Part shown: positions 1,260-29,544 of the stretch, one piece after another
How the letters are laid out: every line of letters starts with the position of its first letter
Position numbering within the stretch: the first letter of the stretch is position 1
Source: a virus
Virus record (IMG/VR): IMGVR_UViG_3300020478_000854
Coordinates: 1-35,195 of that record
Length of the DNA stretch: 35,195 bases
Reading direction: 5' to 3' (one strand)
Notes under the pieces: generated by a model
The model's input: only the letters and a program-made list of their open reading frames with translations
What the model was told of the DNA's origin: nothing
Database searches by the model: none
Translations under genes and position numbers: made by a program

Positions 1260-2098
1260 AGTTGTTTAATCAAATCATCAGTAGAAATCTGTGGTTCAAA
1301 ACCAAGAGATTTTAATTTAGTAGTATCCATCCAGAAATCTTTTGTCTGTACAATAGAATGAAACTTAGGAGATGGTACAGAAACAATTTCAGAGGAAGAA
1401 TTTAAAAGTTCTTTTGCTCTGTCAATTATATCACCAACTTTAGTAGGTTGTCCACTTCCAATGTTATAAATCTGGTTTTTCTCTCCCTTTTCAATCACCA
1501 AGTCAATTGCTCTACAAACATCTTTTACATGTAAGATATCTCTAATGTCTGTTCCTTCATTATACAGTCTAATTGGTTGACCATTTCTCATATTGTCAAT
1601 CATCTGTGTGATTGCATTTTTCTGTAGTGATGCATCAGGGTCATTATCACCTAGAACATTACATAACCTAAGGATTCTATACTTAACTCCAAAGGTTTCA
1701 CAAAAAGAAATGATTAGTTGTTCTGCTGCTCTCTTCGTAATGGAGTAGAACCCTCTTGGATCACAGAGTCCGTCTTCGGAAACTGGATTGTCATTTGCAT
1801 CACCGTATACAAACCAAGAACTAATAAAATTAAACGTAATGTCTTCATGAGTATCGAACCTACGATCTTTAACTTCTACAACTCGGTCAAGTACTTCAGT
1901 GAGAACCATAAGGTTACTCTTTACATCCAATGTAATTTCCTTGAACACATTATAGTTGTGTGTTGTACTAATAAAATATAAAATGTCTTTGTCCATTGGA
2001 GTCCTTTGCCCTCTATCAATGGCACGAGACTTTTTAGGAAACATATTACAAAATGTGCGACCAATGTATCCAGTCGCACCATACACAGATAAACTCAT
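1247..2098 (-). CDS. Short-chain NAD(P)-dependent sugar epimerase/dehydratase/reductase
   Basis: This is a 283-residue extended SDR protein. The N-terminal Rossmann motif GATGYIG is at residues 7-13 and the catalytic Y-x3-K is at Y118/K122. The C-terminus holds the substrate-binding half, with a segment reading RDILHVKDV typical of nucleotide-sugar SDRs. At 283 residues it is shorter than most 4,6-dehydratases (about 320-360), closer to 4-ketosugar reductases or CDP-abequose/paratose synthase-type enzymes. It sits between a GDP-mannose 3,5-epimerase-like gene (ATGA overlap) and an RfbH-type 3-dehydrase (13-base overlap), so reduction of a 4-keto-deoxysugar is a reasonable guess. Exact substrate and reaction cannot be read from the sequence. 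Confidence 0.85.
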   Translation of the reverse strand: MSLSVYGATGYIGRTFCNMFPKKSRAIDRGQRTPMDKDILYFISTTHNYNVFKEITLDVKSNLMVLTEVLDRVVEVKDRRFDTHEDITFNFISSWFVYGDANDNPVSEDGLCDPRGFYSITKRAAEQLIISFCETFGVKYRILRLCNVLGDNDPDASLQKNAITQMIDNMRNGQPIRLYNEGTDIRDILHVKDVCRAIDLVIEKGEKNQIYNIGSGQPTKVGDIIDRAKELLNSSSEIVSVPSPKFHSIVQTKDFWMDTTKLKSLGFEPQISTDDLIKQLCKI

Positions 2099-3246
2099 GC
2101 TAAAACTTCATCAAGAACTTCGGTTTGGAATGTACTTTCAGATTTAATTTGTTCTGAAATCCATTCGTATGTTTTACGGATACCTTCTTCAAGAGGTTGT
2201 GAATAATCCCATCCAAGTTTCTCTCTTACAAGATCATTGTTTGAGTTACGACCACGAACTCCAAGGGGTGCATCTAACTTATGTCTTCTCTGAACTGCTT
2301 TACCTGCAACTTTTGCAGTAATATTTACAAGTTCATTAATAGTAACCATTTCTTCTGAACCAATATTGACTGGTCCTAAGAAATCAGAGTTCATCAATCT
2401 CCAAGTTGCTTCAATACATTCATCAATATAAAGGAATGAACGTGTCTGTTCACCATCACCCCATACTTCAATTGGTCCTCCAACATCAGGAAGGTATGCT
2501 ACTTTTCTACAAATTGCTGCTGGTGCCTTTTCTCTTCCTCCATTCCATGTTCCTTGTGGTCCAAAGATATTATGATACCTGGCAACACGCACAGGAATAC
2601 CGTGATTACGGTTGTAAGCAAGATAGAGACGCTCCGAAAAGAGTTTTTCCCATCCGTATTCTGAGTCTGGTGCTGCGGGATATGCTGATTCTTCACGGCA
2701 ATCTGGATTATTAGGGTCAAGTTGGTTGTACTCTGGATACATGCAAGCAGAACTAGAGTAGAAGATCTTAGTTGGTTGATCCAACTTAGGACGATTACAA
2801 ACAGTATATTCTTTTACTATACCATCAAAGGTTTTATTTAATTGATGGACACCTTCAAGCACGTTTAAGTTTATAGAAGCAGAGTTATGCATGATGTCTG
2901 CATCATTCTCTCCTGTAAATATAAAACCTGCACCACCCATGTCAGCAGCAAACTGGTAGATCTCATCAAAGGGAAGGATGTGTTGATAAGGAACAGAATT
3001 ATAATAGTTCCCTTGATACCCTTTGAACTCAAGAATAGAATTTACAAATGCAGTACTGCGGAGATCACCTACAATAAATTCATTTGCTTCTGTCTTAGCA
3101 AAGTCAGGATACTTTAAATCTACACCTCTTACCCAATAACCTTCTTTACGCAGTCTCTTTACCATATGACTGCCAATAAAACCACCTGCACCTAGTACTA
3201 GGGCGGTCTTTTTGTATTCGCTGCTGTACGTTGTTACTCTCGTCAT
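2095..3246 (-). CDS. GDP-mannose 3,5-epimerase-like SDR
   Basis: This 383-residue protein has the Rossmann motif GAGGFIG at residues 19-25, a conserved MGGAGFIFTGEN segment near 103-114, SSSACMYPE at 164-172 and the catalytic Y-x3-K at Y197/K201. The MGGAGFI block, the cysteine in the SSSACMYP block (C168) and the later RYHNIFGPQGTW block are features of GDP-mannose 3,5-epimerases, which convert GDP-D-mannose to GDP-L-galactose or GDP-L-gulose. Close relatives with other substrates exist, so specificity is inferred. It is the first gene behind a terminator/promoter element at 3269-3303, and its stop overlaps the next start (ATGA), making it the head of a three-gene sugar operon. The cupin at 5921-6313, a mannose-phosphate isomerase-type domain, may belong to the same GDP-mannose chemistry. 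Confidence 0.85.
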   Translation of the reverse strand: MTRVTTYSSEYKKTALVLGAGGFIGSHMVKRLRKEGYWVRGVDLKYPDFAKTEANEFIVGDLRSTAFVNSILEFKGYQGNYYNSVPYQHILPFDEIYQFAADMGGAGFIFTGENDADIMHNSASINLNVLEGVHQLNKTFDGIVKEYTVCNRPKLDQPTKIFYSSSACMYPEYNQLDPNNPDCREESAYPAAPDSEYGWEKLFSERLYLAYNRNHGIPVRVARYHNIFGPQGTWNGGREKAPAAICRKVAYLPDVGGPIEVWGDGEQTRSFLYIDECIEATWRLMNSDFLGPVNIGSEEMVTINELVNITAKVAGKAVQRRHKLDAPLGVRGRNSNNDLVREKLGWDYSQPLEEGIRKTYEWISEQIKSESTFQTEVLDEVLA

Positions 3247-3268
3247 GCTTGAAATTACTTATGTTAAT

Positions 3269-3297
3269 AGTATACACAAAAAAAGGGGTCTTGTAAA
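3269..3297 (-). promoter_or_regulatory. Sigma-70-like promoter for the sugar operon
   Basis: On the minus strand a -35 box TTTACA (3297-3292, 5/6 to consensus) is separated by exactly 17 bases from a -10 box TATACT (3274-3269, 5/6). It lies about 20-50 bases upstream of the ATG at 3246. The -35 box falls in the loop of the terminator-like hairpin that ends the preceding gene. Confidence 0.65.
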
Positions 3298-3300
3298 CCC
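3280..3300 (-). terminator. Weak rho-independent terminator
   Basis: Just after the stop of the gene ending at 3304, the minus strand shows a short GGGT/ACCC stem (3300-3297 with 3289-3286, 7-base loop) followed by a run of seven T after the last C. The stem is only four strong pairs plus a possible wobble, so termination would be partial. Confidence 0.4.
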
Positions 3301-3303
3301 TCC

Positions 3304-3972
3304 TTATTTAGAAAGAAATTTAAGAAAGGGAAATGGACATTTGTTCGGTGTTCTCGAAAACAATTTGTTTCCTTCCTCATAATTTTTAGATTTTGGTTTA
3401 GATAAATGAAATTCTAATTTAGCTAATTCACTTCTCTCTTTTAAAATAACTCCACTATTTAAATCAGGAGACAAGAAAGTTACTCTGAATAGAGGATCAC
3501 CTTTTTTAATGATAAGTGGTTTAGTTTTATCAACTAGTCGAGTTGCCAGACTAGTATTCCTACTCCAATTAGATATGTTAAACCATCCTTCAACCACAGT
3601 AAAATTATTATTTAAAGAAGTTAATGGATGAGAACTATAATCCATCCAAACATCAGGTTCATCTGTCCAAAAAGCAAAGTTACAGATTTCTAATTGAAAG
3701 ACTAATTCCTTAGGATTCTCAGGATCTGATATATTAAACTGACCTATCAACTCAGGATGAGTTGACCACATAACACCATTATCAAATCCTAGTTTATAGT
3801 CTATAGGAGAGTATCCAACAAAGGTTCTGTTTTTTCTGTGTTTAAAAACAGGACACTTATTATACTGTTGTGTTTTATCGACACTATCATATTCCCTGAC
3901 AAGCAACTTTAGTTTGTCAGGGTTATCTGCAATACTTATATAATTGACTTTAAAACTACTCTGCTTTGACAT
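3304..3972 (-). CDS. Unrecognised phage protein, 222 residues
   Basis: I do not recognise this family with confidence. The 222-residue protein has no signal peptide or membrane segment. It is rich in aromatic residues and beta-type segments, with a run around FAFWTDEPDVWMDY and a GWFNISNWSRN stretch followed by IIKKGDPLFRVTFLSP. That last segment resembles the closing strands of a jelly-roll or cupin-like fold, as seen in some phage DUF6065-type proteins, but this is a weak impression. The ATG at 3972 lies inside the end of the small gene 3956-4195 (17-base overlap), so the two are translationally coupled. A terminator-like hairpin follows it. Its place between sugar-nucleotide genes suggests, without proving, a role in glycan or small-molecule metabolism. 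Confidence 0.8.
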   Translation of the reverse strand: MSKQSSFKVNYISIADNPDKLKLLVREYDSVDKTQQYNKCPVFKHRKNRTFVGYSPIDYKLGFDNGVMWSTHPELIGQFNISDPENPKELVFQLEICNFAFWTDEPDVWMDYSSHPLTSLNNNFTVVEGWFNISNWSRNTSLATRLVDKTKPLIIKKGDPLFRVTFLSPDLNSGVILKERSELAKLEFHLSKPKSKNYEEGNKLFSRTPNKCPFPFLKFLSK

Positions 3973-4195
3973 GATCCTTTACATAGCAAGGAACACCTGC
4001 AGGATCTAACCACTTAGTATACTCAAAGTCTTCAATCGCAGTTTTCAATTGCATGAAGTTATCACACCAGTACATGTCCTTGTATCCATTGTGGTTGTTC
4101 CACTTTTGAATACGATAGTCTGGTTGTCCATTCTCTAAGAGATCAGGCATTTTGATATACCTGTATGGATCATTCTGGCATAATACTTCAATCAT
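3956..4195 (-). CDS. Small unrecognised protein, 79 residues
   Basis: This is a 79-residue acidic protein rich in Tyr, Trp and Asp, without membrane segment or recognised motif. It contains YRYIKMPDLLENGQPDYRI and a CDNFMQLKTAIEDFEYTKW segment, predicted helix. It is the first gene behind a sigma-70-like promoter at 4218-4246, and its end overlaps the following gene by 17 bases. Reality is supported by the coupling, the promoter and the lack of any other frame in the interval. Function unknown. Confidence 0.7.
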   Translation of the reverse strand: MIEVLCQNDPYRYIKMPDLLENGQPDYRIQKWNNHNGYKDMYWCDNFMQLKTAIEDFEYTKWLDPAGVPCYVKDHVKAE

Positions 4196-4217
4196 CGGTT
4201 TGTTTGTTTCTATAATA

Positions 4218-4246
4218 ATTATAGCATTAACTTAATGATAAGACAA
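4218..4246 (-). promoter_or_regulatory. Sigma-70-like promoter
   Basis: Minus strand: TTGTCT (4246-4241, 4/6) - 17 bases - TATAAT (4223-4218, 6/6), placed 22 bases upstream of the ATG at 4195 in the 63-base gap after the RfbB gene. Confidence 0.65.
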
Positions 4247-4258
4247 TAGATCCAATCT

Positions 4259-5224
4259 TTAAAGTGGCACATTAATAGTACCGTAGTAACGAGACAGATA
4301 CCATTGTATTGTAGAGTTAATATTTTCTAACCATTTGTCACCAGGTTTCCAACCTATTGCATTAGTAAGTTTAGAATGATCCATGGCATAGCGTTTATCA
4401 TGACCAGGTCGATCATCTGTAACACCAATAAGATCATATGGTTTTTCTAAGATATCTAGTATATCTTTTACAACATCAATATTCTTCTTCTCACATGAAC
4501 CACCAATATTAAATGTATCATTCATAATACCTTGTTCATATAACATCCAGATTGCTTCACAATGGTCTTTGACATATAACCAATCTCTAATCTGATCTCC
4601 ACCACCATGCATGTAAGTTGTTCTATCATTAATAGCATTTGTGATAGTAAGAGGAATCAGTTTCTCAGGATGTTGTCTAGGTCCATAATTATTAGAACAG
4701 TTTGTTATAAGATATGGAACACCATAAGTGTTATGCCATGCTTTAACAAAATAATCTGACGCTGCTTTACTTGCAGAGTATGGATTTCTAGGGTTGTATA
4801 AAGTTTCTTCTGTGAATATATTTGGGTCATCATATTCTAGTGATCCAAATACTTCATCAGTAGAGATATGATGGAACTTGTCTACAACATCTCTACTAGC
4901 ATTCAATAAATTAATTGTACCTAAAATATTTGCCTGAATAAATGGTCGATAGTTTTTAATAGAATTATCTACATGACTTTCTGCAGCAAAATGAAAGACT
5001 ATATTAGGTTTATATGAAACAAATAATTCATCAACTGCTTGTTCATCAGCAATATCAATCTCAATAAACTTGACTCTTTTATTATCGACTAGTTTATCAA
5101 TGTATTTAATATCAGATGCATAAGTGAGATTATCTACAATAACAATCTCGTCATCAGTTTTCTTGTGAATGTAATGTAAAAAATTACTGCCTATGAAACC
5201 AGCAGCACCTGTAACTAAAATCAT
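4259..5224 (-). CDS. rfbB: dTDP-glucose 4,6-dehydratase (RfbB/RmlB family)
   Basis: The chosen start is the ATG at 5224, one base after the stop of the preceding oxygenase gene. It gives 321 residues beginning MILVTGAAGFIG. A longer reading from 5272 would add 16 residues inside the upstream gene and is not supported. The Rossmann motif is at residues 6-12. The STDEVFG block carries the catalytic Asp-Glu pair next to Thr of this dehydratase family, and Y-x3-K is in PYSASKAASDY. The NCSNNYGPRQHPEKLIP block is a signature of dTDP-D-glucose 4,6-dehydratases. The enzyme makes the 4-keto-6-deoxy sugar that a 3-dehydrase such as the one at 1-1259 could use, although the bacterial E1 enzyme works on a CDP sugar. 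No dTDP-glucose synthase is in view, so the substrate presumably comes from the host. Confidence 0.9.
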   Translation of the reverse strand: MILVTGAAGFIGSNFLHYIHKKTDDEIVIVDNLTYASDIKYIDKLVDNKRVKFIEIDIADEQAVDELFVSYKPNIVFHFAAESHVDNSIKNYRPFIQANILGTINLLNASRDVVDKFHHISTDEVFGSLEYDDPNIFTEETLYNPRNPYSASKAASDYFVKAWHNTYGVPYLITNCSNNYGPRQHPEKLIPLTITNAINDRTTYMHGGGDQIRDWLYVKDHCEAIWMLYEQGIMNDTFNIGGSCEKKNIDVVKDILDILEKPYDLIGVTDDRPGHDKRYAMDHSKLTNAIGWKPGDKWLENINSTIQWYLSRYYGTINVPL

Positions 5225-5225
5225 T

Positions 5226-5924
5226 TTAATGTTTTTGCGATTGTTTAATGTACTCTTGATAGTCAGCACCACTAGGAATGTCTGCTTTACCTTCTTTAAT
5301 TGCTTGGTGCAACCAAGTAGTGATAATATACTTATCTCCTTTTAAAGGTTTTCTTCCTTTATGTTGCCAATGATGATCTGATGGGAAAAATACAATCTTT
5401 CCTGTTTCAGGTTTTACTTTGTACCAATAGAAATCAGTTTCTCCTTCTTCAAAATCCTCATTAAGATATATTAGACAACTGAATGCTCTTTGTCTACGTT
5501 GTCTATCATCATCCAATCGATCAAAGTGCCATTCAAAAAAACCAGAATCTTTTTCATACTTTACAATAGTATATCCTTCATCTTCATATACAAAACTTGC
5601 AAGTAAGTTTTCTGGAACATCTCTTTCTTGGTTTTGTTCCCACTCATCATCAAACATTTTACCAATGTCCCAATGATATTGAGCAAAGAACTGATTAATT
5701 TTTTGTTCAATTAAACCATCAATTGATGCATCAAAAGGTACTTGTATTTGATTAGACTTTCTGGCAAGTCCATCAACTGACTCTAAATTACCATGATTTT
5801 GAGCAGTATATACCTGAGAAGCTCTAACTTGATCTAAATTGTTTTCATAAAAATCAATGATTAAGTCACATTCATCTTTTGTAAATGCAATGTACTCCTT
5901 AATATAATCACTTAGTTGGTTCAT
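5226..5924 (-). CDS. 2OG-Fe(II) oxygenase, prolyl-4-hydroxylase-like
   Basis: This 232-residue protein has a C-terminal double-stranded beta-helix oxygenase domain. The iron ligands are readable as H133-x-D135 (EWHFD) and the distal His, most likely H188 in the WQHKG segment. K198 in GDKY is placed to bind 2-oxoglutarate, as in prolyl 4-hydroxylases. The N-terminal ~100 residues look helical and unassigned. The start overlaps the cupin gene by ATGA and the stop abuts RfbB by one base. Phage members of this family are widespread in cyanophages with unknown substrates; protein prolyl or asparaginyl side chains or small molecules are possible. It is the largest of three such genes within 2.7 kb. 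Confidence 0.85.
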   Translation of the reverse strand: MNQLSDYIKEYIAFTKDECDLIIDFYENNLDQVRASQVYTAQNHGNLESVDGLARKSNQIQVPFDASIDGLIEQKINQFFAQYHWDIGKMFDDEWEQNQERDVPENLLASFVYEDEGYTIVKYEKDSGFFEWHFDRLDDDRQRRQRAFSCLIYLNEDFEEGETDFYWYKVKPETGKIVFFPSDHHWQHKGRKPLKGDKYIITTWLHQAIKEGKADIPSGADYQEYIKQSQKH

Positions 5925-14462: not shown

Positions 14463-14470
14463 TATTTATA
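14463..14470 (-). promoter_or_regulatory. T4-type late promoter
   Basis: Minus strand TATAAATA, identical to the T4 late -10 box, 34 bases upstream of the ATG at 14428 and directly after the terminator's T-rich tail. No -35 box is expected for this class. Confidence 0.75.
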
Positions 14471-14739: not shown

Positions 14740-14982
14740 TTACTTCTTCTTACTTACATCCATTATGGCACCTTTGCCATACTTGTCAGTAATCTTTTTC
14801 TTCACCCTATCAAATGCAGAAGGTCCTGTGTTTACCTTCTTTGTCTTCATCATTTCTTTGCTTGGAGGCATTGTAGTTGCATCCTTTTTCTTTGGATTAC
14901 TTCTCCAAGTACCTTTCTCTAAAGCACGGTCACGCATACGATCGTAACCTTCCTCATTGAATTGCTTAAAAGTTTTAGTCAT
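14740..14982 (-). CDS. Short basic protein with internal-head-protein-like N-terminus, 80 residues
   Basis: The chosen ATG at 14982 overlaps the end of the 1006-residue gene by eight bases and gives an 80-residue product starting MTKTFKQFNEEGYDR. In-frame codons further upstream lie inside that gene. The first ten residues resemble the T4 capsid-targeting sequence of internal proteins (MKTYQEFIAEA in IPI/IPIII as I recall), with aromatic and Glu-Glu positions matching. The rest is Lys-rich (KGTWRSNPKKKD, DRVKKKITDKYGKG), like a DNA-associated head protein. The head-protein reading is inference; a simple basic accessory protein is the alternative. Confidence 0.65.
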   Translation of the reverse strand: MTKTFKQFNEEGYDRMRDRALEKGTWRSNPKKKDATTMPPSKEMMKTKKVNTGPSAFDRVKKKITDKYGKGAIMDVSKKK

Positions 14983-17900
14983 TGTCTGCCCTATCATGGA
15001 AACTACCTGTTTTATCAAATAGTTTTGAGGACTGTGACTGTCTTTTATGATACGAACTCTGAGCTTTTTTCCATTGCTTGTCTGCTTCTTTCTTGTCACC
15101 TCTCTTACGGGCATCTTTCATTTTGCGTTCAGATTTCCACTGTTGACTACGATGTTTTGAAAGTGCACCAAGTGCTTTACCATATGGTGACTGTGGCCTT
15201 TTTCTTGCCTTTTTACCACCAGATGCCTTAGTGCCTTTGTTTTGTATAGTCACTTCATCAGTTTTCATTGCCTGTACGTATTTCTTGACAGGTGTACCAT
15301 CAGAAGTTTTCTTACCAGTATCCTTTACTTGTCCACCAGATCTAAAGTCTACTTTACCCCTTGTTCCTTTTTCTAGGATCTCCTTAATCATCCCTTTCAT
15401 TTTCTTTTTCTTCTTTCCATAACCTTCTTCTACTGATGAAGGTGTAGTATCTGGTTTCTTATCTTCTATTGGATGCTCAATGACTTTACCATTAGCATCT
15501 TTTTCATGATGCTCCTTTTGCATCTTTTTCTTTTGCCAAGAATCAAGTGCGTCTACTGGACGACCACCCTTTGCCATAACAGACTTCTTATGTGCTTGGA
15601 ATGCAGCAGCAGAACTTGCTTTCTTCTCACCTTCTGCTTTACTTGCAGCAGCACGTTTCGCAACATCTGCTTTTGCTTTATCTTGAATTGCTTGCAACTT
15701 AGGATTTAATGCTTCTTGAGTCATTCCTGCCTTCTTCTTCATTTTATTGGCAGCAATTTCACCTGCAGTAGCTGCTACAGTTTCACCTGCGGTTTTTGCT
15801 CCTGCTTTCAATCCTTCTACACCTGCTTTACCAACTGCTTTTGTTGCTGATCCTGCTGCTTTGGCAACTGGTTTTGCTACTTTTGCTGCACCTTTTGCTG
15901 CTACAGTTGCACCTTTTGCTGCTACTTTACCAGCACCCATTGCTACTTTACCACCAACCAATGCTGCTTTACCAAGCACTGCGGGAATAGCAGCGAGTGG
16001 TGCTACCTCATCAATCTTCTCACCTTCAGGTTCAAGTTCCATCTTGAGACCCATTGCTCTCAATTTATTTTTCTTGAGATTCACTCTAGTTGCAACTTCT
16101 CCTGATGACATGTCTGGTGTTATTTCCTTAGACATAGCACAATCTGTTTCTTTCTTCCCTTCTTTCTTCTTATCTTTAGGATTTAAGGATTTACCTTCTT
16201 TATCATAACCATAATTAGCATCTTCTGTAGCAAGAGGTTCTACATGCTCAGGATCCCAGTGATCCTTCATTGCCATCTTAGTGGCAGTAGCATACATAAC
16301 TTCTTTTGCACGAGAACCATAGCGAGACTTCATATCAGCAAAGTTCTTTTTCATTCCTTTGACGATATCTTCTTTCTTATCAACCTGAGAATCAGTCATC
16401 TTCTCTTGGAAATCTGTAAGATCAACGACATCTACATCTTCCAATTTAATAACACTTTCACCTAATTCAGGATTAACCTTTACAGTATTCTTAATACCTT
16501 TCTTAGGAGTTATCTTTGGATTGTTGCTAGTGTTACCCATAATCTCGGTAATCTCTTCACTAGGAACATCAAGATCTTCCTTCATTCTACTCTTGATCGC
16601 TGCACCAATTGCACCACGACGCTTCATCAAATACTTATCAGTCTTATCTTTCTTACCGTCATTGTTCACATCACCATCTTCTTTACCTACAGGATCTAAA
16701 CTTTTACCTGCTTTTGCTCTTGCAGTATACTGTCCCTTTCTCTTCTCTCCTTCATATGGAGTTCCGTGATCAGTTGGATTTACAGATTGGATATTTGGAT
16801 TTGCACGAAGTTCAGACTTCTTGACTGCATCTGCATATCTAACATAAGACTTACCACTCTTATCAGTAACTCTTACTTTGTCTTTACCATCTTTACGTTC
16901 TTCACTAAGACCTCTATACTCAACAAATGCATTGTGGAATGGATTATTCATATAGGTGTATTCATCCTTTAATCCTTTCTTGACACCTTCATATCCACCT
17001 TTCACTGCACCTTTTACTGCACCTACAGCACCTCTTGCTGTTGCAGATACAACTTTTTTAACACCTTTCTTAATGGCACTAACAAGACCACCCTTCTTCT
17101 TACCACCAGGTTTAGAAGAGAATTTAGTGAAACCTTTAGATTCACCACTATCACTACCAGAATCGCTAGAAGATGATGAACTACCAGTTGAACCAGAAGA
17201 TGCTGGTTTACCAGATGCACCATACTTACCTCTTTCATAACCTTTCTTGGCAGAACTCTTGACTGCACTACCTGCTCTTTGTGCAGTACCAACTGCTCTT
17301 GCACCTACACCTACAGCACCTGTTGCTGCTTTACCTACACCTTTAGCTGCTGATTTTAAACCAGACTTAATTTTTTTAGCAGCAGGACCTGCCTTCTTCA
17401 TTGCAGCTCTAACTTTTTCTACTCTCTTAGCTGCATGGTTTATAGTTCCAGAAGGTTTTGATGTTGGTGATGATGCCTTCTTTTTATCTGGTGCTTGTAC
17501 AGCAACATTAGGAAATGCTGAATGCTTTGATGGTGCTTCAGTTAATAACTCTGTGTCAAACTGTTCTAATACTGACTCAATTATAAACTCATCTTCATCA
17601 CACTCTACTAATGCTTCGGTAAAAATCTCAACTAATTCATCTTCGGTAAATTCATCTACCCAATCTTCATAAAAGAAACTGAAATCAAGTGTCTCCTTTG
17701 CTTCGCCAAACAGTTTTCCTCTTACTGCTTTCTTTTCCATGGCACTCATATTAGTGTTTGACATGTACTGAGAAAATGCTGCTGGCAATTCTATATCTTC
17801 TCTTCTTGCTCTATATCTAATGTCATAGACTGCTTGTTTTATTTTCTTTTCAGAACCGCCACCTTCATCTTTTGAAGCTGCAGCAGCAGTCGATCCAGCA

Positions 17901-17995
17901 GGTGCTGCACCTCCTTTGGCTTTACGTGGGGGTAACTCTTCTTGGAGATAGGGTCTTCTTAACTCCCCAAATGCCTCCGAAAATGGATTAGACAT
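14975..17995 (-). CDS. Very large Lys/Ala/Gly-rich protein with duplicated NPFxxAFxE motif (candidate internal head protein)
   Basis: Start ATG 17995 (MSNPFSEAFGELRRPY). A TTG reading from 18007 would overlap the previous stop. The product is 1006 residues. Regions in order: an N-terminal motif (1-20), a helical basic part (50-100), an acidic part (101-155), Ala/Lys/Gly repeats (185-260), a Ser-rich linker (262-290), more basic repeats (300-345), and a second copy of the N-terminal motif at 349-367 (NNPFHNAFVEYRGLSEER). A dockerin/EF-hand-like loop follows at 441-454 (GDVNNDGKKDKTDK), a mixed helical section spans 500-650, a long Ala/Gly/Lys repeat runs 663-750, and a strongly basic C-terminus (860-1006) closes it. 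No enzyme domain is seen. The composition suggests a DNA-condensing or scaffold/core head protein, possibly processed. GATAAATA at 18033 may be its late promoter. Confidence 0.8.
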   Translation of the reverse strand: MSNPFSEAFGELRRPYLQEELPPRKAKGGAAPAGSTAAAASKDEGGGSEKKIKQAVYDIRYRARREDIELPAAFSQYMSNTNMSAMEKKAVRGKLFGEAKETLDFSFFYEDWVDEFTEDELVEIFTEALVECDEDEFIIESVLEQFDTELLTEAPSKHSAFPNVAVQAPDKKKASSPTSKPSGTINHAAKRVEKVRAAMKKAGPAAKKIKSGLKSAAKGVGKAATGAVGVGARAVGTAQRAGSAVKSSAKKGYERGKYGASGKPASSGSTGSSSSSSDSGSDSGESKGFTKFSSKPGGKKKGGLVSAIKKGVKKVVSATARGAVGAVKGAVKGGYEGVKKGLKDEYTYMNNPFHNAFVEYRGLSEERKDGKDKVRVTDKSGKSYVRYADAVKKSELRANPNIQSVNPTDHGTPYEGEKRKGQYTARAKAGKSLDPVGKEDGDVNNDGKKDKTDKYLMKRRGAIGAAIKSRMKEDLDVPSEEITEIMGNTSNNPKITPKKGIKNTVKVNPELGESVIKLEDVDVVDLTDFQEKMTDSQVDKKEDIVKGMKKNFADMKSRYGSRAKEVMYATATKMAMKDHWDPEHVEPLATEDANYGYDKEGKSLNPKDKKKEGKKETDCAMSKEITPDMSSGEVATRVNLKKNKLRAMGLKMELEPEGEKIDEVAPLAAIPAVLGKAALVGGKVAMGAGKVAAKGATVAAKGAAKVAKPVAKAAGSATKAVGKAGVEGLKAGAKTAGETVAATAGEIAANKMKKKAGMTQEALNPKLQAIQDKAKADVAKRAAASKAEGEKKASSAAAFQAHKKSVMAKGGRPVDALDSWQKKKMQKEHHEKDANGKVIEHPIEDKKPDTTPSSVEEGYGKKKKKMKGMIKEILEKGTRGKVDFRSGGQVKDTGKKTSDGTPVKKYVQAMKTDEVTIQNKGTKASGGKKARKRPQSPYGKALGALSKHRSQQWKSERKMKDARKRGDKKEADKQWKKAQSSYHKRQSQSSKLFDKTGSFHDRADND
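15887..15925 (-). repeat. 21-base tandem repeat inside the 1006-residue gene
   Basis: An 18-base sequence (GTAGCAGCAAAAGGTGCA on the minus strand) occurs twice, 21 bases apart, at 15887-15904 and 15908-15925. It encodes two 7-residue repeats of the form KGAxxAA. Low-complexity Ala/Lys/Gly coding continues on both sides. Confidence 0.7.
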
Positions 17996-18003
17996 AGCTA
18001 AAT

Positions 18004-19158
18004 TCAATGATTACTTGATTTCTTCTTATTTTTATTTATCTTTGTAAAAGATCTTACTTTTTCAAGAGGCGTCATTCTCTGTACATATTCCCTATAGGAG
18101 TCGGTGCCAACCTCATGAACCTCGTTGATATCCTTGATCCAAGACTTGAACATCATGCCTTCTTTAGTAAGAGCAATGACATAATTTGTACCTTGACGAA
18201 TGATCCTTCCCATCAAACCATGATTTAAATTTTCAATCAAATCACCAACACCAAAGACATTTCCAGAGACAAAGTTTTCTCTTAAATTAAGGAAGTCTAA
18301 CTTAGGTGCAATCTGCCAAAGTGAATTTTCTTGGACACCCATGTTTCTACGAACTGTATTATACAATTCTTTAGTCATCTTTTTGTCTAATGGTTTGGGA
18401 ACACCAGTTGCAAAAGTATCAAAGTCACCATCGATCGCTGCCTTGCGAAGTTTCGATGCAGACATACCCTCAACACCTTCTGCATCAGGGTCTCTTTTTC
18501 CTGCAGAAATAACATTAATATTTTCAAAATTATAAAGTTGACCGTTATACTTAGTTGCCAAACTTTCAAACTCTGATCTACGATCATCACCTACAACAAT
18601 GTTTACTTCACTATGACCATCAGCGTATGCAGACTTGAGAACATCAAAGATTGTACGCATCTTTGTATCATGAACAATATTGTTTGCATGATCAGGGAAC
18701 ATTGCCTTCATGAAACCAACTTTAGTTTCAGAATCTAAAGGATTTTTCTTGGCATCTTGTGAATGAGATGGGTATACTTTATATTCACCATCTGCAGCAG
18801 TTTTCTTTATTGCACCTAACAGTGCTTCATGTCCAATAGTAGGTGGATTAAACCTACCAAACCCAACAGTTAGAGGACCTTTTGTTGGTTGATCTTCTGC
18901 AGGTTCTTCCTCTGCAGGTGCCTGTTGCTGATCATGAGGAACTTTCTGTCCAGAAACTGAATCCTTAGGACCAGTTAATTCATCTTCACCAGGACCTTTT
19001 TTCTTACCAAAAAATTTCAGAGATCCTTTTACAGTTTTTGCTACAAGTTTTCCATTGTTATCATACCAATCTCCATGACCATTCCCCTGCAACCCCAGAC
19101 GTGCTGCCTGTTGAGATGCAGTGCTTGTTGCTTCTTTAATGAAATCAACAAAATTCAT
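18004..19158 (-). CDS. NMNAT/cytidylyltransferase-fold protein with capsid-targeting-like N-terminus
   Basis: The 384-residue protein has three parts. Residues 1-20 (MNFVDFIKEATSTASQQAAR) look like the T4 capsid-targeting peptide that delivers internal proteins to the prohead. After a low-complexity linker rich in Pro/Glu/Gln comes a nucleotidyltransferase domain (95-250) with FGRFNPPTIGH (T107-x-G-H110, the HxGH-type active site), VVGDDR at 188-193 and SASKLR at 233-238 (the ISSTxxR-type motif). Relatives transfer adenylyl or cytidylyl groups (NMNAT, PPAT, glycerol-3-P cytidylyltransferase); the substrate here is unknown. The C-terminal 280-350 segment (FGVGDLIENLNHGLMGRII) looks like a small KOW/SH3-type module found in other cyanophage proteins. 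ATGA-type overlaps link it to both neighbours. Confidence 0.85.
   Translation of the reverse strand: MNFVDFIKEATSTASQQAARLGLQGNGHGDWYDNNGKLVAKTVKGSLKFFGKKKGPGEDELTGPKDSVSGQKVPHDQQQAPAEEEPAEDQPTKGPLTVGFGRFNPPTIGHEALLGAIKKTAADGEYKVYPSHSQDAKKNPLDSETKVGFMKAMFPDHANNIVHDTKMRTIFDVLKSAYADGHSEVNIVVGDDRRSEFESLATKYNGQLYNFENINVISAGKRDPDAEGVEGMSASKLRKAAIDGDFDTFATGVPKPLDKKMTKELYNTVRRNMGVQENSLWQIAPKLDFLNLRENFVSGNVFGVGDLIENLNHGLMGRIIRQGTNYVIALTKEGMMFKSWIKDINEVHEVGTDSYREYVQRMTPLEKVRSFTKINKNKKKSSNH
18033..18040 (-). promoter_or_regulatory. Possible late promoter for the 1006-residue protein
   Basis: Minus strand GATAAATA, seven of eight matching the T4 late box, 38 bases upstream of ATG 17995 and inside the end of the preceding gene. 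It fits the NATAAATA form I recall for cyanophage late promoters. Confidence 0.45.
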
Positions 19159-20333
19159 TTCTTATCCCAGTTTTTTGCTACTGTAAAATTGTTTCTACTG
19201 AACTCAAAACGATCTATAAGTTTAATGGCACGACCATTCTTGATAGCAACAAACCCCTCAGGAGTAGTTACTTTATATCCATTGTTGATACGAACAAAAG
19301 TTCCTATAGATTTTGCACGTTCAAGTCTACGAATAATAAAGTTTTTTGCTTGTGTAATGTTCATGTGAGAAGCAATTGTCATATAAATGCTTCTTTGGTT
19401 TTTCTCAATAAACCTGAGACCAAGTGTTTTGATACGTATATATTTATCCTTACCAGATTTGCTCTTCTTAGAAGAAACTTCTTTGTCTAGAACAGATGCA
19501 TAATACCTAGAGAAGTCACGAACAACAACAGATGCACTCTTTAGTGTCTTACCTTCTCTGACATATGAGTTGAAAAACTTTTTAAATATTGTTGGCATTG
19601 CATAGTCTGACTTTTGCATTGAATCTAAAAAGAGTGATGCTTGCTTTAGAGATCCACGAGAACGTGAAACTAGAGCAGCAAACTTCAACCTATCAATAGC
19701 ACTAAACCTAGAAGCACCAACAGAGTCAGTAAAATTCGCAGAGGGAACAAAGATATCCTCATGATCCTGAATATTCTTTCTGAATCCAAACTTTGCATCC
19801 ATCGAAGATAAGGAGTCACCACGATATTCCGTATGAAATACGATCCCCAATACCGCCTTGGATACCTTTTTAGCAAGGTAACTACCAAGAGGAATGGTAT
19901 AAGTGATAGTATTAGGAGTGAAACTAATAACTCGGTCTCCACCGATAGATAATAATTTTTTGTCGTTTGTAAAAAGGAGATCACCTTGGACGACCCCTTC
20001 AATACCGAGTTTAGGAAGGTGCCTAAGGCATGCTTTAAGTTTAGAAGCAAGTTGCCCAGTATAATACTTGTCAATGTCACCGTCCGAATAGCATACTTTA
20101 GCATTAGTTTTATTGAATACTGACTTGGTGCCTACAAAGAACTTATCTGTCTCAGGATCTGTTCCACAAACAATTGCAGGCGCACCATCCCACTTGGTAG
20201 TGATGTTGATTTCGTTTGGTCGTTGGTGAAGAAACTTACCAATGTCCTCTAGAAAATCAATAACATCTCTACCACCTTTAGACCCTCTGTTAAGGATCTC
20301 ATCTTCTATATGTTCTAGGTGGGTGTTTTTCAT
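19155..20333 (-). CDS. KxDG nucleotidyltransferase/ligase-like phage protein
   Basis: This is a 392-residue protein. At residues 46-50 it reads TKWDG, the K-x-D-G motif I of ATP-dependent DNA/RNA ligases and mRNA capping enzymes, with K47 as the candidate AMP-accepting lysine. Downstream, GVVQGDLLF resembles motif III (G-E/D-h), and further beta-rich segments (FVGTKSVFNK, TYTIPLGSYLAK) fit the adenylation fold. I recall this as a family of unknown function common in marine T4-like phages (DUF6267). The C-terminal half is helical and basic with no OB-fold that I can identify. A sigma-70-like promoter stands upstream, and it overlaps the nucleotidyltransferase gene by four bases. Enzymatic activity is inferred, not shown. 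Confidence 0.8.
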   Translation of the reverse strand: MKNTHLEHIEDEILNRGSKGGRDVIDFLEDIGKFLHQRPNEINITTKWDGAPAIVCGTDPETDKFFVGTKSVFNKTNAKVCYSDGDIDKYYTGQLASKLKACLRHLPKLGIEGVVQGDLLFTNDKKLLSIGGDRVISFTPNTITYTIPLGSYLAKKVSKAVLGIVFHTEYRGDSLSSMDAKFGFRKNIQDHEDIFVPSANFTDSVGASRFSAIDRLKFAALVSRSRGSLKQASLFLDSMQKSDYAMPTIFKKFFNSYVREGKTLKSASVVVRDFSRYYASVLDKEVSSKKSKSGKDKYIRIKTLGLRFIEKNQRSIYMTIASHMNITQAKNFIIRRLERAKSIGTFVRINNGYKVTTPEGFVAIKNGRAIKLIDRFEFSRNNFTVAKNWDKK

Positions 20334-22942: not shown

Positions 22943-24313
22943 TTAAAATTTAAGGGATTGAAATTTCTTAGAGTATTTAGAATCTTCTACCTGCTCTTCT
23001 TCTCCACTGTCGATAATATCTGATTGAGCAGACTGTTCACAATCATACAACCTCATCTTTCCTCTGTCAATACCCACGATAAAACGTTTGTTGACAGTAG
23101 GATCATTGTATCTATTCTTAAGTTGCTTAACCATTATCTGTCCTAACTCCTCAAGTTCCTCAGTCGAGATAAGAGCAAACATGAGGTCAGCAGTAGCAGG
23201 CAGACCAAAGGATTCAGACGTATCAGTAAGGTCAACATCACTAGAAGCAAAACCAGAACGAGTCGTCTGAGTGGCGGAGACGATAGGTACATTAGCCTCA
23301 ACTGCAAGACCACGGAGTTCTTCAGCAATCGCTTTAATATAGGAATACGAATTGACATTACTACCTGCTCTGTAACGTGAGGATGCACATATGTTTAGAT
23401 AATCTATGAATATTATATCAGGTTTGAAAGATTTTTTCAAAGCAAGTTCATTAAGTAATGCTTTGAAGTGACCACTGTGTGCACCTGCAGTAGGATACTC
23501 TTTAATAATTAACTTACCTTGAGTTTTCTTTACAAGGTTATTTACCTTAGTATCAAAGATTTGTTTTGGTAGTTCAACAATTTCTTTAATGTTTGTGTTC
23601 AGAAGGTTTGCATCAATACGTTCAGCAATTTTCTCCTCTGCCATCTCCATTGTAACGTAAAGTACGTTGTATCCGTCAAGCAGATTGGCGCTAGCCATGT
23701 GACACATGAAAAGAGACTTACCAACACCTGTCCCAGCAAGAGCGATGTTAAGAGTCTTGTTAGGAAGACCACCTTTCGTAATCTTGTTAAAATATTCAAG
23801 ATCAAAGGGGATTTTAGTTTTCTTTTCATGATAAGAAATAAAGCGTTCTTCATAGTCTTCAATGTAATCATGACCAACATGATTATCAAAACTTACTGCA
23901 AGAGCATCGGAAAGAATTGATGGGATTGCATCACGGTTTTTATTTTTATCTTTATTATCAGCAATCATGACTGATTCCATGAGTGCGATATAGATAGCAC
24001 GATCCCTACACCACTTCTCAGTAGTTTTTTCTAACCATTCATTATTGACAGGTTCATCAGTAAAGTCATCGATAATTGTTTTAACTTCACTGAATTCATC
24101 TCCACTAAGATCATCTCTGTTATCAACTTCAATACCAAGAATCTCCTTCGTTGGCATCTTATTGTATTCAGTGATAAACTTGTGAATCTCCTGAAAGATA
24201 ATTTTTTCTGATCTTAGTTCAAAGTATTCATCCTTAATAAAAGGAAGAACCTTTCTAGAATACGACTCATTGATTAAGAAGTTTCTAAGAACAGTAAGTT
24301 CAATTTTCTCCAT
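22943..24313 (-). CDS. 41: T4 gp41-like replicative DNA helicase
   Basis: This DnaB-family hexameric helicase unwinds the fork and recruits primase gp61. Start ATG 24313 (MEKIELTVLRNF) is preferred; the longer reading from 24334 starts at TTG. The product is 456 residues, normal for gp41. The N-terminal helical domain is followed by a RecA-like core with Walker A AGTGVGKSLFM near residue 195, VLYVTMEM (the conserved acidic strand), FIDYLNICASS (Walker B) and SATQTTRSG. The acidic C-terminal tail (DSGEEEQVEDS) is present. It overlaps uvsX by 14 bases and precedes mazG by two. Confidence 0.95.
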   Translation of the reverse strand: MEKIELTVLRNFLINESYSRKVLPFIKDEYFELRSEKIIFQEIHKFITEYNKMPTKEILGIEVDNRDDLSGDEFSEVKTIIDDFTDEPVNNEWLEKTTEKWCRDRAIYIALMESVMIADNKDKNKNRDAIPSILSDALAVSFDNHVGHDYIEDYEERFISYHEKKTKIPFDLEYFNKITKGGLPNKTLNIALAGTGVGKSLFMCHMASANLLDGYNVLYVTMEMAEEKIAERIDANLLNTNIKEIVELPKQIFDTKVNNLVKKTQGKLIIKEYPTAGAHSGHFKALLNELALKKSFKPDIIFIDYLNICASSRYRAGSNVNSYSYIKAIAEELRGLAVEANVPIVSATQTTRSGFASSDVDLTDTSESFGLPATADLMFALISTEELEELGQIMVKQLKNRYNDPTVNKRFIVGIDRGKMRLYDCEQSAQSDIIDSGEEEQVEDSKYSKKFQSLKF

Positions 24314-25307
24314 AAGCAAAATGTTGTTGTGCAATAGCGTCTAACTTCTCCATTACCTCAGGAGTGAAATAAGATTCTGGATCTTTGTATATTGCTTTGG
24401 CATATACTTTCTTACCATCCATCTCATATCTACCTGCAACATTCTTCCAAAGACCACCAAGTTCTCCAAGTTCAAGGAGACCATAATAACGATCAAGTCC
24501 ACGTTGATCATAATAAAGTCGTACTGTAACATCTTGGTTCTCCTTACTTAAACGAGACTTAGCAGTCTTTGCCTTGATAAGGTTTCCAATGACTTCCGTG
24601 CCATCCTTCTCTTTCTTTTTGCTGAGATGGATGATTGTAGATGCAGCATACTTGAGTCCACTGCCTCCACCCATTTCTTTCGTAGGTACATAAGCTCCAA
24701 TAACATCGTAAGTATGATTAGTAACAATCATAGGAATTTTTGCCTGACCCAATTTAAGGGTAAGCATTCGGAATGCACCTTTGACCAATTGAGATTTGGT
24801 CATGTCTCGGACTTGTTTATCGTTGAGTGCATCGGTAATTTCTTTCTCAGTAGAAAGCATACCTAATGAGTCTAGCACAAACATACAAGGTTTGCGTTTT
24901 TCTTTATCTGTCTTCAGGTATATGTCAACAGACTTTAATGCTTTTGATCTAAACTCTTCTATTGTTACCACGTTGACAACAACGAACCTTTCGAGATCAA
25001 TTCCTCTAGACTCAAGGAGTCCCCTGTTGATAGCAGCCTCGGTGTCAAAATAAAGGCAGTAACCATCAGGGTTATTATCCAAAAAGTTTTTGACAACAGC
25101 CAACGAAAAGAAAGTCTTTCCAGTAGAGCTTTCACCAGCAATAGCGGTAATCTTGTTCCTAGATACACCGCCAAATACAGAGCCTGATACAAGGCTGTTA
25201 AAAATGTACGAACCTGTGTCAATAAATTCTTCAGTTGATTCTACCTCCGATGCAAGTTGGGTGTACTCGTCACCAATTTCTTTTACAATTTCTTTTAAAA
25301 AATCCAT
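24300..25307 (-). CDS. uvsX: T4 UvsX-like RecA recombinase
   Basis: UvsX forms filaments on single-stranded DNA and drives strand exchange for recombination-dependent replication. The start ATG 25307 (MDFLKEIVKEI) is chosen over a TTG two codons upstream. The 335-residue protein has Walker A AGESSTGKTFFS near residue 58, MFVLDSLGML (Walker B) and VTNHTYDV, followed by the Gly-rich MGGGSGLKYAAS (L2) loop. Length fits T4-like UvsX, slightly shorter than T4's own. A sigma-70-like promoter at 25327-25355 heads the uvsX-41-mazG operon. Confidence 0.95.
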   Translation of the reverse strand: MDFLKEIVKEIGDEYTQLASEVESTEEFIDTGSYIFNSLVSGSVFGGVSRNKITAIAGESSTGKTFFSLAVVKNFLDNNPDGYCLYFDTEAAINRGLLESRGIDLERFVVVNVVTIEEFRSKALKSVDIYLKTDKEKRKPCMFVLDSLGMLSTEKEITDALNDKQVRDMTKSQLVKGAFRMLTLKLGQAKIPMIVTNHTYDVIGAYVPTKEMGGGSGLKYAASTIIHLSKKKEKDGTEVIGNLIKAKTAKSRLSKENQDVTVRLYYDQRGLDRYYGLLELGELGGLWKNVAGRYEMDGKKVYAKAIYKDPESYFTPEVMEKLDAIAQQHFAYGEN

Positions 25308-25326
25308 AATCAAAGTATCTAAAAAT

Positions 25327-25355: not shown

Positions 25356-25613
25356 GGGTGCTTCTTCTTCTAACTTTTCACTTTCAATTATATCTGACTC
25401 GTCAGGATTTTGAAAGTTGTGTGTTGATTTCAATGTATGAAGATATTTCAAAACGTGTTCACGTATCTCCATCAAGTCTTCGTAACAACCTTGATTGTGA
25501 GCACAACCACGAAGGTCATGATCTGGTTTCATAACTGATTCTGTAAAGAGATCTAATGCTCTTTGATATTTTACAGTAGGTGATTCTTGACCTACAGATG
25601 CTTGATCCTTCAT
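25338..25613 (-). CDS. Small unrecognised protein, 91 residues
   Basis: This 91-residue hydrophilic protein has a helical core and two Cys and several His residues in its middle (DHDLRGCAHNQGCYEDLMEI, then REHVLKYLH). These could bind a metal, but no standard zinc-finger spacing is present. The C-terminus is acidic (DIIESEKLEEE). The start overlaps the DNA polymerase stop (ATGA), so it is made with the replication proteins. I do not recognise the family; position suggests an accessory replication or recombination role. Confidence 0.7.
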   Translation of the reverse strand: MKDQASVGQESPTVKYQRALDLFTESVMKPDHDLRGCAHNQGCYEDLMEIREHVLKYLHTLKSTHNFQNPDESDIIESEKLEEEAPLSKWR

Positions 25614-28105
25614 ACGAAAAATTGCTCCAATGTGTTTCTTCTTTCAACTTTCCATTGTATAGCATCCAGAATAATTTTCAAGGGTTCTAAAAACGACTTG
25701 TCAAACTGAGTGTCATAATCTACATATTTGTTTAAACCCAGTTCATGTGGAAAGTCTTGGATAAACGAAATAACGTTTTCCTGAATTGGGTTTGGTATCT
25801 TCAAGTAACAGAATTTAATTTTTTCACCATTGTTAATCAATGAATACTTTTGATCCAAATTATTCTTTTTTATATAGTGATTAAAGAGCAGTGACCCTCT
25901 TACATGAATTGGAGTACCTTTCACATAGATGTCGGCATCCCCTTTGAACTTATTAGGATTACTACAAGATCTTGGAAATGAAACTTCCTCTGGACTCATT
26001 GAACGAAAGTTCTTTCTAGAGTCTGCAATAAAATCAATCACTTCATCTTCAGTTCCTTCCATAACCATCTTCAAGGCATCTTTAATTAACTTCCTACATG
26101 CAGCAGGTGTTGATGACTTGACTGCTTCAATACCCATCATCTTCAGTTTTGGTTCTTCATATCTAACTCCTTCACTATCCCATACGTTTAGAATGTATCT
26201 TTTCTTTGCTGTCCAGATACCACGTTCAGCGATGTTCTCTCGCTTCATACTCATTTTCTGATCATACGCAGAAACGTAATCAGCAAGTTCCTGATAGGAT
26301 TTCTCAATGAACGGTTCCAACGTTTCTTTACAGATCTTGTCAAGTATCCCCACAACTGCTGTTTTGTTGCTAGACTCATCACCAAAAAGTTTATTAACAA
26401 GAGGTCCAAGATTAAGATAGATTGAGTCGGTGTCAGATGCGATAACATAATCTACTTCCTCCGTTTGCAAAAGTTTATTTAGGTATCGATTCATGCGTTG
26501 TTCAATCCAACGAATAGAAACCTGACCAGATAATGTGATTGCCTCAGCATTTGCTAGTTTGTAATACCTGAAGTATTGATTACCAATAGCACCATAAGCA
26601 GAGTTAAGAGAAATCTTCTTTGCCATTTGAATGTTGTTACATCTAGAGATCTCCTTTTCAAGAGCTTTAGTAGGTTTCTTCTCATACTCTTGCTTCGCTT
26701 TAAGCATTCTTTTCTTGAATATAACACGGTCACCATACATCTTCTCCATTAGTTCTGGTAAGAATCCACGTTTATCTTTACGGAACATTGCACCATTCGC
26801 ACAAATTGCATTGTCCTTATACATTTCAAAAGTTAGTTTCTCTTTGAGTAACTTATTAACTGTAATTGAAGGGTGCTTTTCTTCAAGTAAAGTTTCTGGG
26901 GAAATATTATACTGCATGATTAAATGTGGATACAGACTGTTCAAGTCAAAGGAAACAACCCAATCGTAAACACCTGGCACTGGTTCTTTCACATATGCAC
27001 CTGCATATCTTTCCATCTTATCATTTTCTTCCTTTGGAGGAATAACAATATTCTTTCGTTTCAGGTAATTGTAAATGATAGTATCCCACATCCTTACCTG
27101 ATAGAAAACATCAATATAATTTACCTTGGCATCATATGCCATAGTCAGGGCAAGTTCAATCAACTTCATCTTGTCTTCCAACTCATCAACTAGTTCTACG
27201 TCAATGATGTTGTATTCAATAAACTTCTGCCAACCTTTTGTATAGAAGTCTTTGAATGTATCAAACTCAGAGTGATCAAGTTTCTTCTTACCAAGTTCAA
27301 CTTCAGCAATATAATCTAGTCTATAAGACTCTTGTGCCTTATAAGTAAACTTCTTATAGAGATCAAGATAATCAAGACATGCTATTCCAGACACAGTATA
27401 AGAAACATGTTCTCGTCCCATAATCTTTATGATACCTTTTCTTACCATATTCCAAGGAGAAAATGTCCTCATCTCTTTTTGACCTAGGACACGATCTATA
27501 CGACCACAGATATAAGGAATATCATATAAGTTACAATTCCAACCAGTAATCACATCTGGATAGTTCTTTGTCCAGAAAGCAAGGAAGGAACGTAGAAGGT
27601 GTACTTCACTGTTGCAGTTGATATAACTAACGTTATCTTTCTTGTTTACGAATGCACCTTGACCCCATGTAACAATTTGTTTTGTTGCAGAGTTTTGAAT
27701 ACTAATTGCAAGGATCTCTTCGGCAACTGCATCTGTGGTAGGGAAACCATTTTCAGATGCTACCTCAATATCAATCGTAAATATTCTTACCTTAGATGCA
27801 TCAAATTTAATTTCTTCCTGTGGGTACTTCTCAGAAATATATTGATAGATGTACTTATCATTTCCGTATATTGATACATTTTCTACAGCACTATATTTTT
27901 CAATAAAGTTTCTACATTCCATCACACTACCAGGTTTGATGGGTGAAACTGTTTCTCCTGATAGAGTCTTGTACTTAGACTTCTTAGGAGATTTCATAAA
28001 AAGAGTCGGAGAAAACTTTTCTCTTGTCTGAAAGTAGTTACCATTATCGTAACCACGAACAAGGAAATCATCTCCGACTAGTTGGACATTTGTGTAGAAC
28101 TTCAT
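25610..28105 (-). CDS. 43: T4 gp43-like family B DNA polymerase
   Basis: The 831-residue polymerase with proofreading is shorter than T4 gp43 (898) and usual for cyanophages. Exonuclease motifs: Exo I TIDIEVA with D112/E114, Exo II GWNCNLYDIPYI, Exo III YNIIDVELV. Polymerase motifs: A SFDLNSLYPHLIMQYN, B KKISLNSAYGAIGN, C VIASDTDSIYL. The C-terminal LEQFFV is the clamp-binding peptide that docks on gp45. No intein, intron or split is present. Start and stop both form ATGA overlaps with neighbours. Confidence 0.97.
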   Translation of the reverse strand: MKFYTNVQLVGDDFLVRGYDNGNYFQTREKFSPTLFMKSPKKSKYKTLSGETVSPIKPGSVMECRNFIEKYSAVENVSIYGNDKYIYQYISEKYPQEEIKFDASKVRIFTIDIEVASENGFPTTDAVAEEILAISIQNSATKQIVTWGQGAFVNKKDNVSYINCNSEVHLLRSFLAFWTKNYPDVITGWNCNLYDIPYICGRIDRVLGQKEMRTFSPWNMVRKGIIKIMGREHVSYTVSGIACLDYLDLYKKFTYKAQESYRLDYIAEVELGKKKLDHSEFDTFKDFYTKGWQKFIEYNIIDVELVDELEDKMKLIELALTMAYDAKVNYIDVFYQVRMWDTIIYNYLKRKNIVIPPKEENDKMERYAGAYVKEPVPGVYDWVVSFDLNSLYPHLIMQYNISPETLLEEKHPSITVNKLLKEKLTFEMYKDNAICANGAMFRKDKRGFLPELMEKMYGDRVIFKKRMLKAKQEYEKKPTKALEKEISRCNNIQMAKKISLNSAYGAIGNQYFRYYKLANAEAITLSGQVSIRWIEQRMNRYLNKLLQTEEVDYVIASDTDSIYLNLGPLVNKLFGDESSNKTAVVGILDKICKETLEPFIEKSYQELADYVSAYDQKMSMKRENIAERGIWTAKKRYILNVWDSEGVRYEEPKLKMMGIEAVKSSTPAACRKLIKDALKMVMEGTEDEVIDFIADSRKNFRSMSPEEVSFPRSCSNPNKFKGDADIYVKGTPIHVRGSLLFNHYIKKNNLDQKYSLINNGEKIKFCYLKIPNPIQENVISFIQDFPHELGLNKYVDYDTQFDKSFLEPLKIILDAIQWKVERRNTLEQFFV

Positions 28106-28911: not shown

Positions 28912-28940
28912 ATTATAAAAGGACTCTTGGTTTTTGTCAA
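28912..28940 (-). promoter_or_regulatory. Perfect sigma-70 promoter nested in a terminator
   Basis: Minus strand: TTGACA (28940-28935) - 17 bases - TATAAT (28917-28912), both 6/6. The -35 box sits across the inner stem and loop of the terminator hairpin at 28918-28949. It drives the Sm-like pair and probably gp43. Confidence 0.85.
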
Positions 28941-28949
28941 GAGTCCTTT
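28918..28949 (-). terminator. Strong hairpin terminator after hsp20
   Basis: A perfect 12-bp stem (AAAGGACTCTTG / CAAGAGTCCTTT) with an 8-base loop begins 12 bases past the hsp20 stop and is followed on the minus strand by TTATAATG. The T-tract is short (TTTT at the stem end), so termination may be incomplete. Confidence 0.75.
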
Positions 28950-29503: not shown

Positions 29504-29534
29504 ACAAAAAAAGGAAGGTGTAAAAACCTCCCTT
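29504..29534 (-). terminator. Rho-independent terminator after regA
   Basis: Minus strand stem AAGGGAGGT/ACCTTCCTT (9 pairs with one G-U), 6-base loop, then a run of seven T. It starts 10 bases past the regA stop and closes the gp45-gp44-gp62-regA gene group. Confidence 0.88.
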
Positions 29535-29544
29535 TTCATTACGG

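Follow-up and report, generated by a model that had tools for sequence, protein, structure and literature searches.

We found that 38 bases between two genes of a T4-like phage carry both a strong hairpin and a perfect sigma-70-type promoter, and this is probably a superposed terminator-promoter element. The element lies at positions 28912-28949 of the window, by which we mean the whole analyzed stretch of DNA (35,195 bp; virus record IMGVR_UViG_3300020478_000854, positions 1-35,195). Since the layout is kept in relatives where the letters of the hairpin are altered on both sides, we conclude from the sequence comparisons that this control element of marine, cyanophage-related T4-like phages is real, under selection, and economical of space. 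Gene matches in the window point to the T4-like cyanophages (gp43, UvsX, a DnaB-like helicase, primase, RegA, a clamp loader, and a CobS-like protein). The element occupies the gap of ~70 bp between hsp20 and phrog_431, the latter heading the gp43-uvsX-gp41 replication genes (Table 1). Elsewhere in the window, three phrog_540 nucleotide-sugar epimerase-family genes lie close together within 1247-5272 (minus strand), and after this cluster come cytidyltransferase-like genes and others without known function (14975-20333). An Rfam search of the window returned no RNA family match, and a tRNA search of the window returned no tRNA.

Hairpin and promoter in the same bases

Read along the minus strand from 28949 to 28912, the element is AAAGGACTCTTG-ACAAAAAC-CAAGAGTCCTTT-TATAAT. 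A preliminary description of this DNA had placed TTGACA across the inner stem and loop, with TATAAT directly after a perfect 12-bp stem, and this proved exact. A consensus scan for sigma-70-type promoters (hexamers 16-18 bp apart) gave a 12/12 match with a 17-bp spacer, and the perfect 12-bp hairpin (28949-28918) had a predicted energy of -17.5 kcal/mol (z -7.5), with none of 200 shuffles equally stable. Dinucleotide shuffles of the whole window gave an expectation of 0.05 for 12/12 promoters, of which the window holds two, and likewise of 0.05 for perfect 12-bp stems, of which it holds one. With the putative start placed by sigma-70 geometry, the predicted 5' leader is ~16 nt long. The other perfect promoter in the window (TTGACA-17-TATAAT at 13041-13013, minus strand) comes without a hairpin and is located in the end of the preceding ORF, directly upstream of the primase gene. 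Read on the plus strand (28918-28949), the hairpin has GAGTTTTATT and a weak TTGTCA/TATTAT pair behind it and could therefore act on antisense transcripts as well. A T4-type late promoter was considered for the hsp20-phrog_431 site and rejected, as its box TATAAATA is absent there and has its sole window copy at 14463-14470.

Table 1. Features of the hsp20-phrog_431 element, the second site, and the neighboring genes (window coordinates).
Feature	Position	Strand	Basis or remark
Hairpin 5' arm AAAGGACTCTTG	28938..28949	minus	fold; covaries in relatives
Hairpin loop ACAAAAAC	28930..28937	minus	fold
Hairpin 3' arm CAAGAGTCCTTT	28918..28929	minus	entirely inside promoter spacer; fold; covaries in relatives
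-35 box TTGACA	28935..28940	minus	three bases in 5' arm, three in loop; fixed in 13 relatives (part of the search pattern)
-10 box TATAAT	28912..28917	minus	immediately 3' of 3' arm, at U-tract position; invariant in 13 relatives
Predicted transcription start	28905	minus	~7 nt past -10 box; placed by sigma-70 geometry
Second-module hairpin GGGTTT-ACA-AGACCC	3286..3300	minus	
Second-module T7 tract	3278..3284	minus	
Second-module -35-like TTTACA	3292..3297	minus	in stem and loop; conserved in L461-L470
Second-module -10-like TATACT	3269..3274	minus	TATAAT in L464, L468, L469
hsp20, small heat-shock protein, 155 aa	28962..29429	minus	upstream gene; ORF, translation, and annotated cyanophage Hsp20 homologues
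phrog_431 protein, 177 aa	28356..28889	minus	first gene downstream of promoter
phrog_483 protein, 85 aa	28102..28359	minus	second gene
gp43 DNA polymerase (phrog_262)	25610..28105	minus	third gene
UvsX-like recombinase	24300..25313	minus	
DnaB-like (gp41-type) replicative helicase	22943..24334	minus	

A similar layout had been reported at 3269-3300, with TTTACA and TATACT separated by 17 bases. It is present as described and conserved in relatives, but it is weaker than the hsp20 element: the promoter matches TTGACA/TATAAT at 10 of 12 positions (spacer 17), and the local fold of the hairpin amounts to -7.9 kcal/mol, with no stability excess over shuffles when longer flanks were included. In relatives the stem is one base pair longer and the T-run one base shorter, while the spacer is still 17. 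This second site belongs to the same design as the hsp20-phrog_431 element. The regA/hsp20 gap (29508-29537, minus strand) holds a canonical terminator-like hairpin whose loop contains TTTACA and whose tail is T7; it is kept in L006, L008, L013, and L014, with TATATAAT further downstream; no -10 box was found at 17 bp from this TTTACA.

Conservation and recurrence of the layout

A nucleotide search of the junction against phage records gave matches only in the hsp20 coding sequence because the hairpin arms differ, and relatives were therefore sought by protein similarity and by a core pattern. In 14 close contigs the element was essentially unaltered. S-T4, which has the same gene order, reads GACCCCGCTTG-ACAACGAC-CAAGCGGGGTC-T-TATAAT, and a further distant contig, again with the same gene order, reads GAGGGGTTCTTG-ACAAAGAC-CAAGAACCCCTC-TATAAT. 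The pattern scan of viral contigs used the core CTTGACAANNACCAAG alone and gave 13 distinct matches that adjoin hsp20, all 13 of which have TATAAT at a spacer of 17 together with paired arms. Both features are also present in one further match, L299, in which no hsp20 was detected. The remaining ~95 matches, many of them evidently coding or unrelated, almost all lack these features.

In the alignment of the 13 junctions, 98.1% of the cells were paired (75.4% in shuffles), 38 cells were altered on both sides (12.3 in shuffles), and such double changes affected 8 of the 12 base pairs; as the sequences within this set and those below are related, the counts do not represent independent events. 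The covariation score was 0.676 against a shuffled mean of 0.216, with none of 500 shuffles scoring as high and slid controls at or below 0.27. TTGACAA was part of the search pattern and is thus fixed by construction among the 13; TATAAT, the 17-bp spacer, and the eight outer pairs lay outside the pattern. TATAAT and its 17-bp spacing are nevertheless invariant in all 13 junctions, and their arms contain five sense-strand wobble pairs and no A-C mismatches. Covarying arms, fixed boxes, and a fixed 17-bp spacing argue strongly, on comparative grounds, that pairing and promoter alike are under selection.

When junctions were fetched by hsp20 or gp43 similarity and not by motif, every one of the 26 distinct hsp20-phrog_431 gaps (21 scored by script and 5 judged directly from the junction sequences) carried a superposed hairpin-promoter. 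Among the 28 gaps where no phrog_431 was detected behind hsp20, only 4 did. The element accompanies the gp43 transcription unit. The hsp20-phrog_431 gaps contain three architectures in all. A bulge architecture is frequent in cyanophage-like contigs (for example GAGGGGC-AACTGG-CAAAAT-CCAGTT-GAC-GCCCCTC-TTTTTT-CTTGA-TATAAT) and has the -35 box on the 3' side of the hairpin, where TT closes the inner stem and GAC bulges out as three unpaired bases; the 17-bp spacer is made up of the outer 3' arm together with the T-run, and TATAAT comes after it. Among 99 distinct elements of this kind the outer arms vary, and outer-arm pairing reached 624/693 (shuffle mean 554, maximum 569), without asymmetry between wobble pairs and A-C mismatches. 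In the third form, the hairpin is short and GC-rich, its loop consists of TTGAC alone, and a T-run is present (GGGGATC-TTGAC-GATCCCC-TTTTTT).

Several other features were observed in the sequences that follow hsp20. Just past the stop codon of hsp20, ahead of the hairpin, S-T4 (L216), L197, and most bulge-type junctions have a conserved motif, AATATCGTCGSCGC, which is absent from the window's own group. In contigs with a different gene after hsp20 (L034, L037, L080, L084, and others), the gap often contains a near-palindrome TGTATCA...TGATACA followed by TATAAT, which is possibly an operator or another regulatory design. L015 has a terminator, GGGGAGTTAACTCCCC-ATTTTTTTATAAATA, after hsp20, whose T-run is fused with a late promoter box of the T4 type, TATAAATA; this is a terminator/late-promoter analogue of the module.

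Recurrence beyond this junction was measured by binning -10 boxes according to their distance from the stem end of T-tailed hairpins, with promoters matching at no less than 10 of 12 positions and TTTACA also accepted as -35. In S-T4 (150 kb), 7 cases fell in the 0-19 bin where 0.44 were expected (P 4e-7). Other cyanophage-like contigs, with the hsp20-phrog_431 junction removed, had 13 cases in this bin against a mean of 2.6 in the other bins (P 3e-6; the raw count was 14, one of which is the window element on its other strand). In both S-T4 and the cyanophage-like contigs, the excess was confined to the 0-19 bin. P-SSM2 provided one perfect superposed case, and no superposition was found in the 150 kb of Syn9 or the 50 kb of S-PM2 that were searched. 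In the RB49 and T4 stretches, the excess lay at 20-79 nt, i.e. hairpin then promoter, with 16 -10 boxes in that range and 3 at 0-19 nt; the cyanophage set, with 9 superposed cases versus 2, differs from this distribution (Fisher P about 0.001). L171 (81,270 bp) and L182 (68,562 bp), contigs for which the phage collection gave no nucleotide match, contain 24 and 28 perfect TTGACA-16/18-TATAAT promoters, respectively. Most of these share a strand and fall within about 15-20 kb; several have a hairpin superposed in like manner (e.g. AAAAAGGGGTTG-ACAA-CAACCCCTTTTT).

The initial suggestion of a deliberate compact module is well supported by the covariation with invariant boxes, the syntenic conservation, and the above-chance recurrence.

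The hairpin as a possible terminator, and competing readings

The hairpin had also been described as ending hsp20. It is strong and does stand at the end of hsp20, but termination by it as a canonical intrinsic terminator appears doubtful, the -10 box having replaced the U-tract. On the hsp20 strand, TATAATGC comes after the hairpin in place of a T-run, and there is almost no U-tract because TATAAT occupies its position; a U-rich tail (TTTTATAAT) is obtained only when the tail is taken to include the A-U end of the stem. In a consensus scan no minus-strand terminator was called for the window hairpin, the only call being on the opposite strand. An approximate terminator score was below 0 for the window copy (tail TTTTATAAT), and was negative or none for the tails of the window-type architecture in general (TTTTATAAT, TTATAAT, CTATAAT).

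The displaced U-tract, the scores, and the scan all speak for a reading in which the promoter is combined with an mRNA 3'-end hairpin. In this architecture, the hairpin would not bring transcription to an end; after processing it would protect the hsp20 mRNA at its 3' end or define that end, or else it would be only a pause site, with most polymerases reading through. We consider this rather unlikely, as hairpins at the homologous junctions of related phages have T5-T7 tails, one bulge-type example from a homologous junction (L055) has a canonical terminator score, and the second window site has a T7 tract. We thus infer termination at the window copy, which is without a canonical U-tract, from its position and from the homologous junctions with canonical T-runs. 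A more radical proposal for the window's architecture is that the -10 hexamer itself supplies the tail of the terminator. If polymerase came to a halt 7-9 nt beyond the hairpin, TATAAT would lie within the melted bubble; sigma could then recapture the halted polymerase in place and turn the terminating complex directly into an initiating one, coupling termination and reinitiation at one site. We regard this as improbable.

Composite promoter-terminator motifs are already known in T4-like phages as PeSLs (promoter-early stem-loops; Arbiol et al. 2010 and Comeau et al. 2014, as quoted in PMC4503421), and what differs here is the superposition and the lack of homology among copies. Like PeSLs, the present element belongs to T4-like phages and packs a stem-loop and a sigma-70-like promoter into a single short intergenic stretch. 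A typical PeSL would have a stem-loop that is an effective terminator and many copies per genome in hyperplastic regions, the copies having sequence in common and acting as recombination points. Compared with this description, the window element has a predicted strong sigma-70-like promoter (12/12, spacer 17, -10 invariant in relatives) and a strong hairpin without a U-tract, with canonical tails at homologous junctions; its layout is found at 7 places in 150 kb of S-T4 and at none in 150 kb of Syn9. Unlike in the RB49 and T4 sequence on which we assessed the PeSL geometry, and where the promoter mostly comes after the hairpin, the signals are superposed. The element furthermore stands at a core replication junction, and its copies are without mutual homology (at most 9 bp in common within S-T4; no second copy in the window).

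A strict PeSL reading would make the element a mobile cassette with homologous recombination and module shuffling as its main role, and the regulatory layout as secondary. The parts are of the same kind in phages of the same type, and PeSLs have been reported as shuffling mediators (in the work quoted in PMC4503421). Nonetheless, this reading is very unlikely: S-T4 copies with no more than 9 consecutive bases in common would be poor substrates for homologous exchange, the window element adjoins conserved replication genes and matches at most 11 bases elsewhere in the window, and the arms differ among phages at the same site.

The inverted repeat could instead control the promoter as a protein-binding operator, or as a DNA cruciform that covers the -35 box, with no RNA hairpin involved. 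Indeed, the repeat overlaps the -35 box and the spacer, a region that is the usual location of operators. The arm sequence varies freely while pairing is kept, however, which a sequence-specific protein would not allow, and five wobble pairs against no A-C mismatches lean to RNA, even though the bulge architecture is without such asymmetry. We attach very little credence to this reading. Mere coincidence in short AT-rich intergenic gaps, where T-runs behind hairpins resemble -10 boxes, was rejected as next to impossible in view of the shuffle expectations, the double changes, the excess in the 0-19 bin only, and the 17-bp spacing that stays constant through changes in stem and T-run length in the comparative data.

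Proposed mechanism and significance

For the superposed terminator-promoter element we propose the following mechanism. A transcript running through hsp20 would form the strong hairpin, and RNA polymerase would be released, or at least stalled, on reaching the -10 box. The same bases, as duplex DNA, would serve as a strong sigma-70-type promoter for the host RNA polymerase and start the phrog_431-phrog_483-gp43-uvsX-gp41 replication block. Within a single intergenic gap, the element would thereby split the regA-hsp20 unit from the gp43 unit, and the polymerase genes would be given an early or middle start of their own. We infer three things from sequence: the promoter fires, it relies on host sigma, and the hairpin terminates or pauses transcription in vivo. 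In a T4-like cyanophage, g43 is reportedly expressed together with early/middle genes (PMC5082946), which fits this model, without being a test of it.

Proximity of terminators and promoters is common in bacteria, and recycling and reinitiation by RNA polymerase after termination has been shown in vitro for E. coli polymerase with a separate terminator and promoter (PMC6978380, PMC11347151). As in those systems, a putative terminator stands beside a promoter, so that a released polymerase could restart nearby; there the two signals are separate, whereas here they are superposed. Polymerase recycling is therefore a plausible reason for bringing a terminator and a promoter so close together, and a terminating polymerase may restart nearby. 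An intergenic motif of the haloarchaeal virus HGTV-1, consisting of a TATA-like box and an inverted repeat, was likened to PeSLs by its authors (PMC3950731). It is likewise a repeated intergenic promoter-like box joined to an inverted repeat, but HGTV-1 is, unlike the window phage, an archaeal virus with an archaeal-type box.

Altogether, selection can keep an RNA hairpin and a duplex promoter, two signals that are read in different modes, within one and the same set of bases. It does so through no fewer than three architectures at a single gene junction, one of which keeps the GAC of the -35 box as a hairpin bulge. These junctions offer a ready comparative set for studying terminator-promoter interference or cooperation, as well as in-place restart of terminated polymerase, and, for a large group of marine phages, they specify where transcription of the replication genes is predicted to start.
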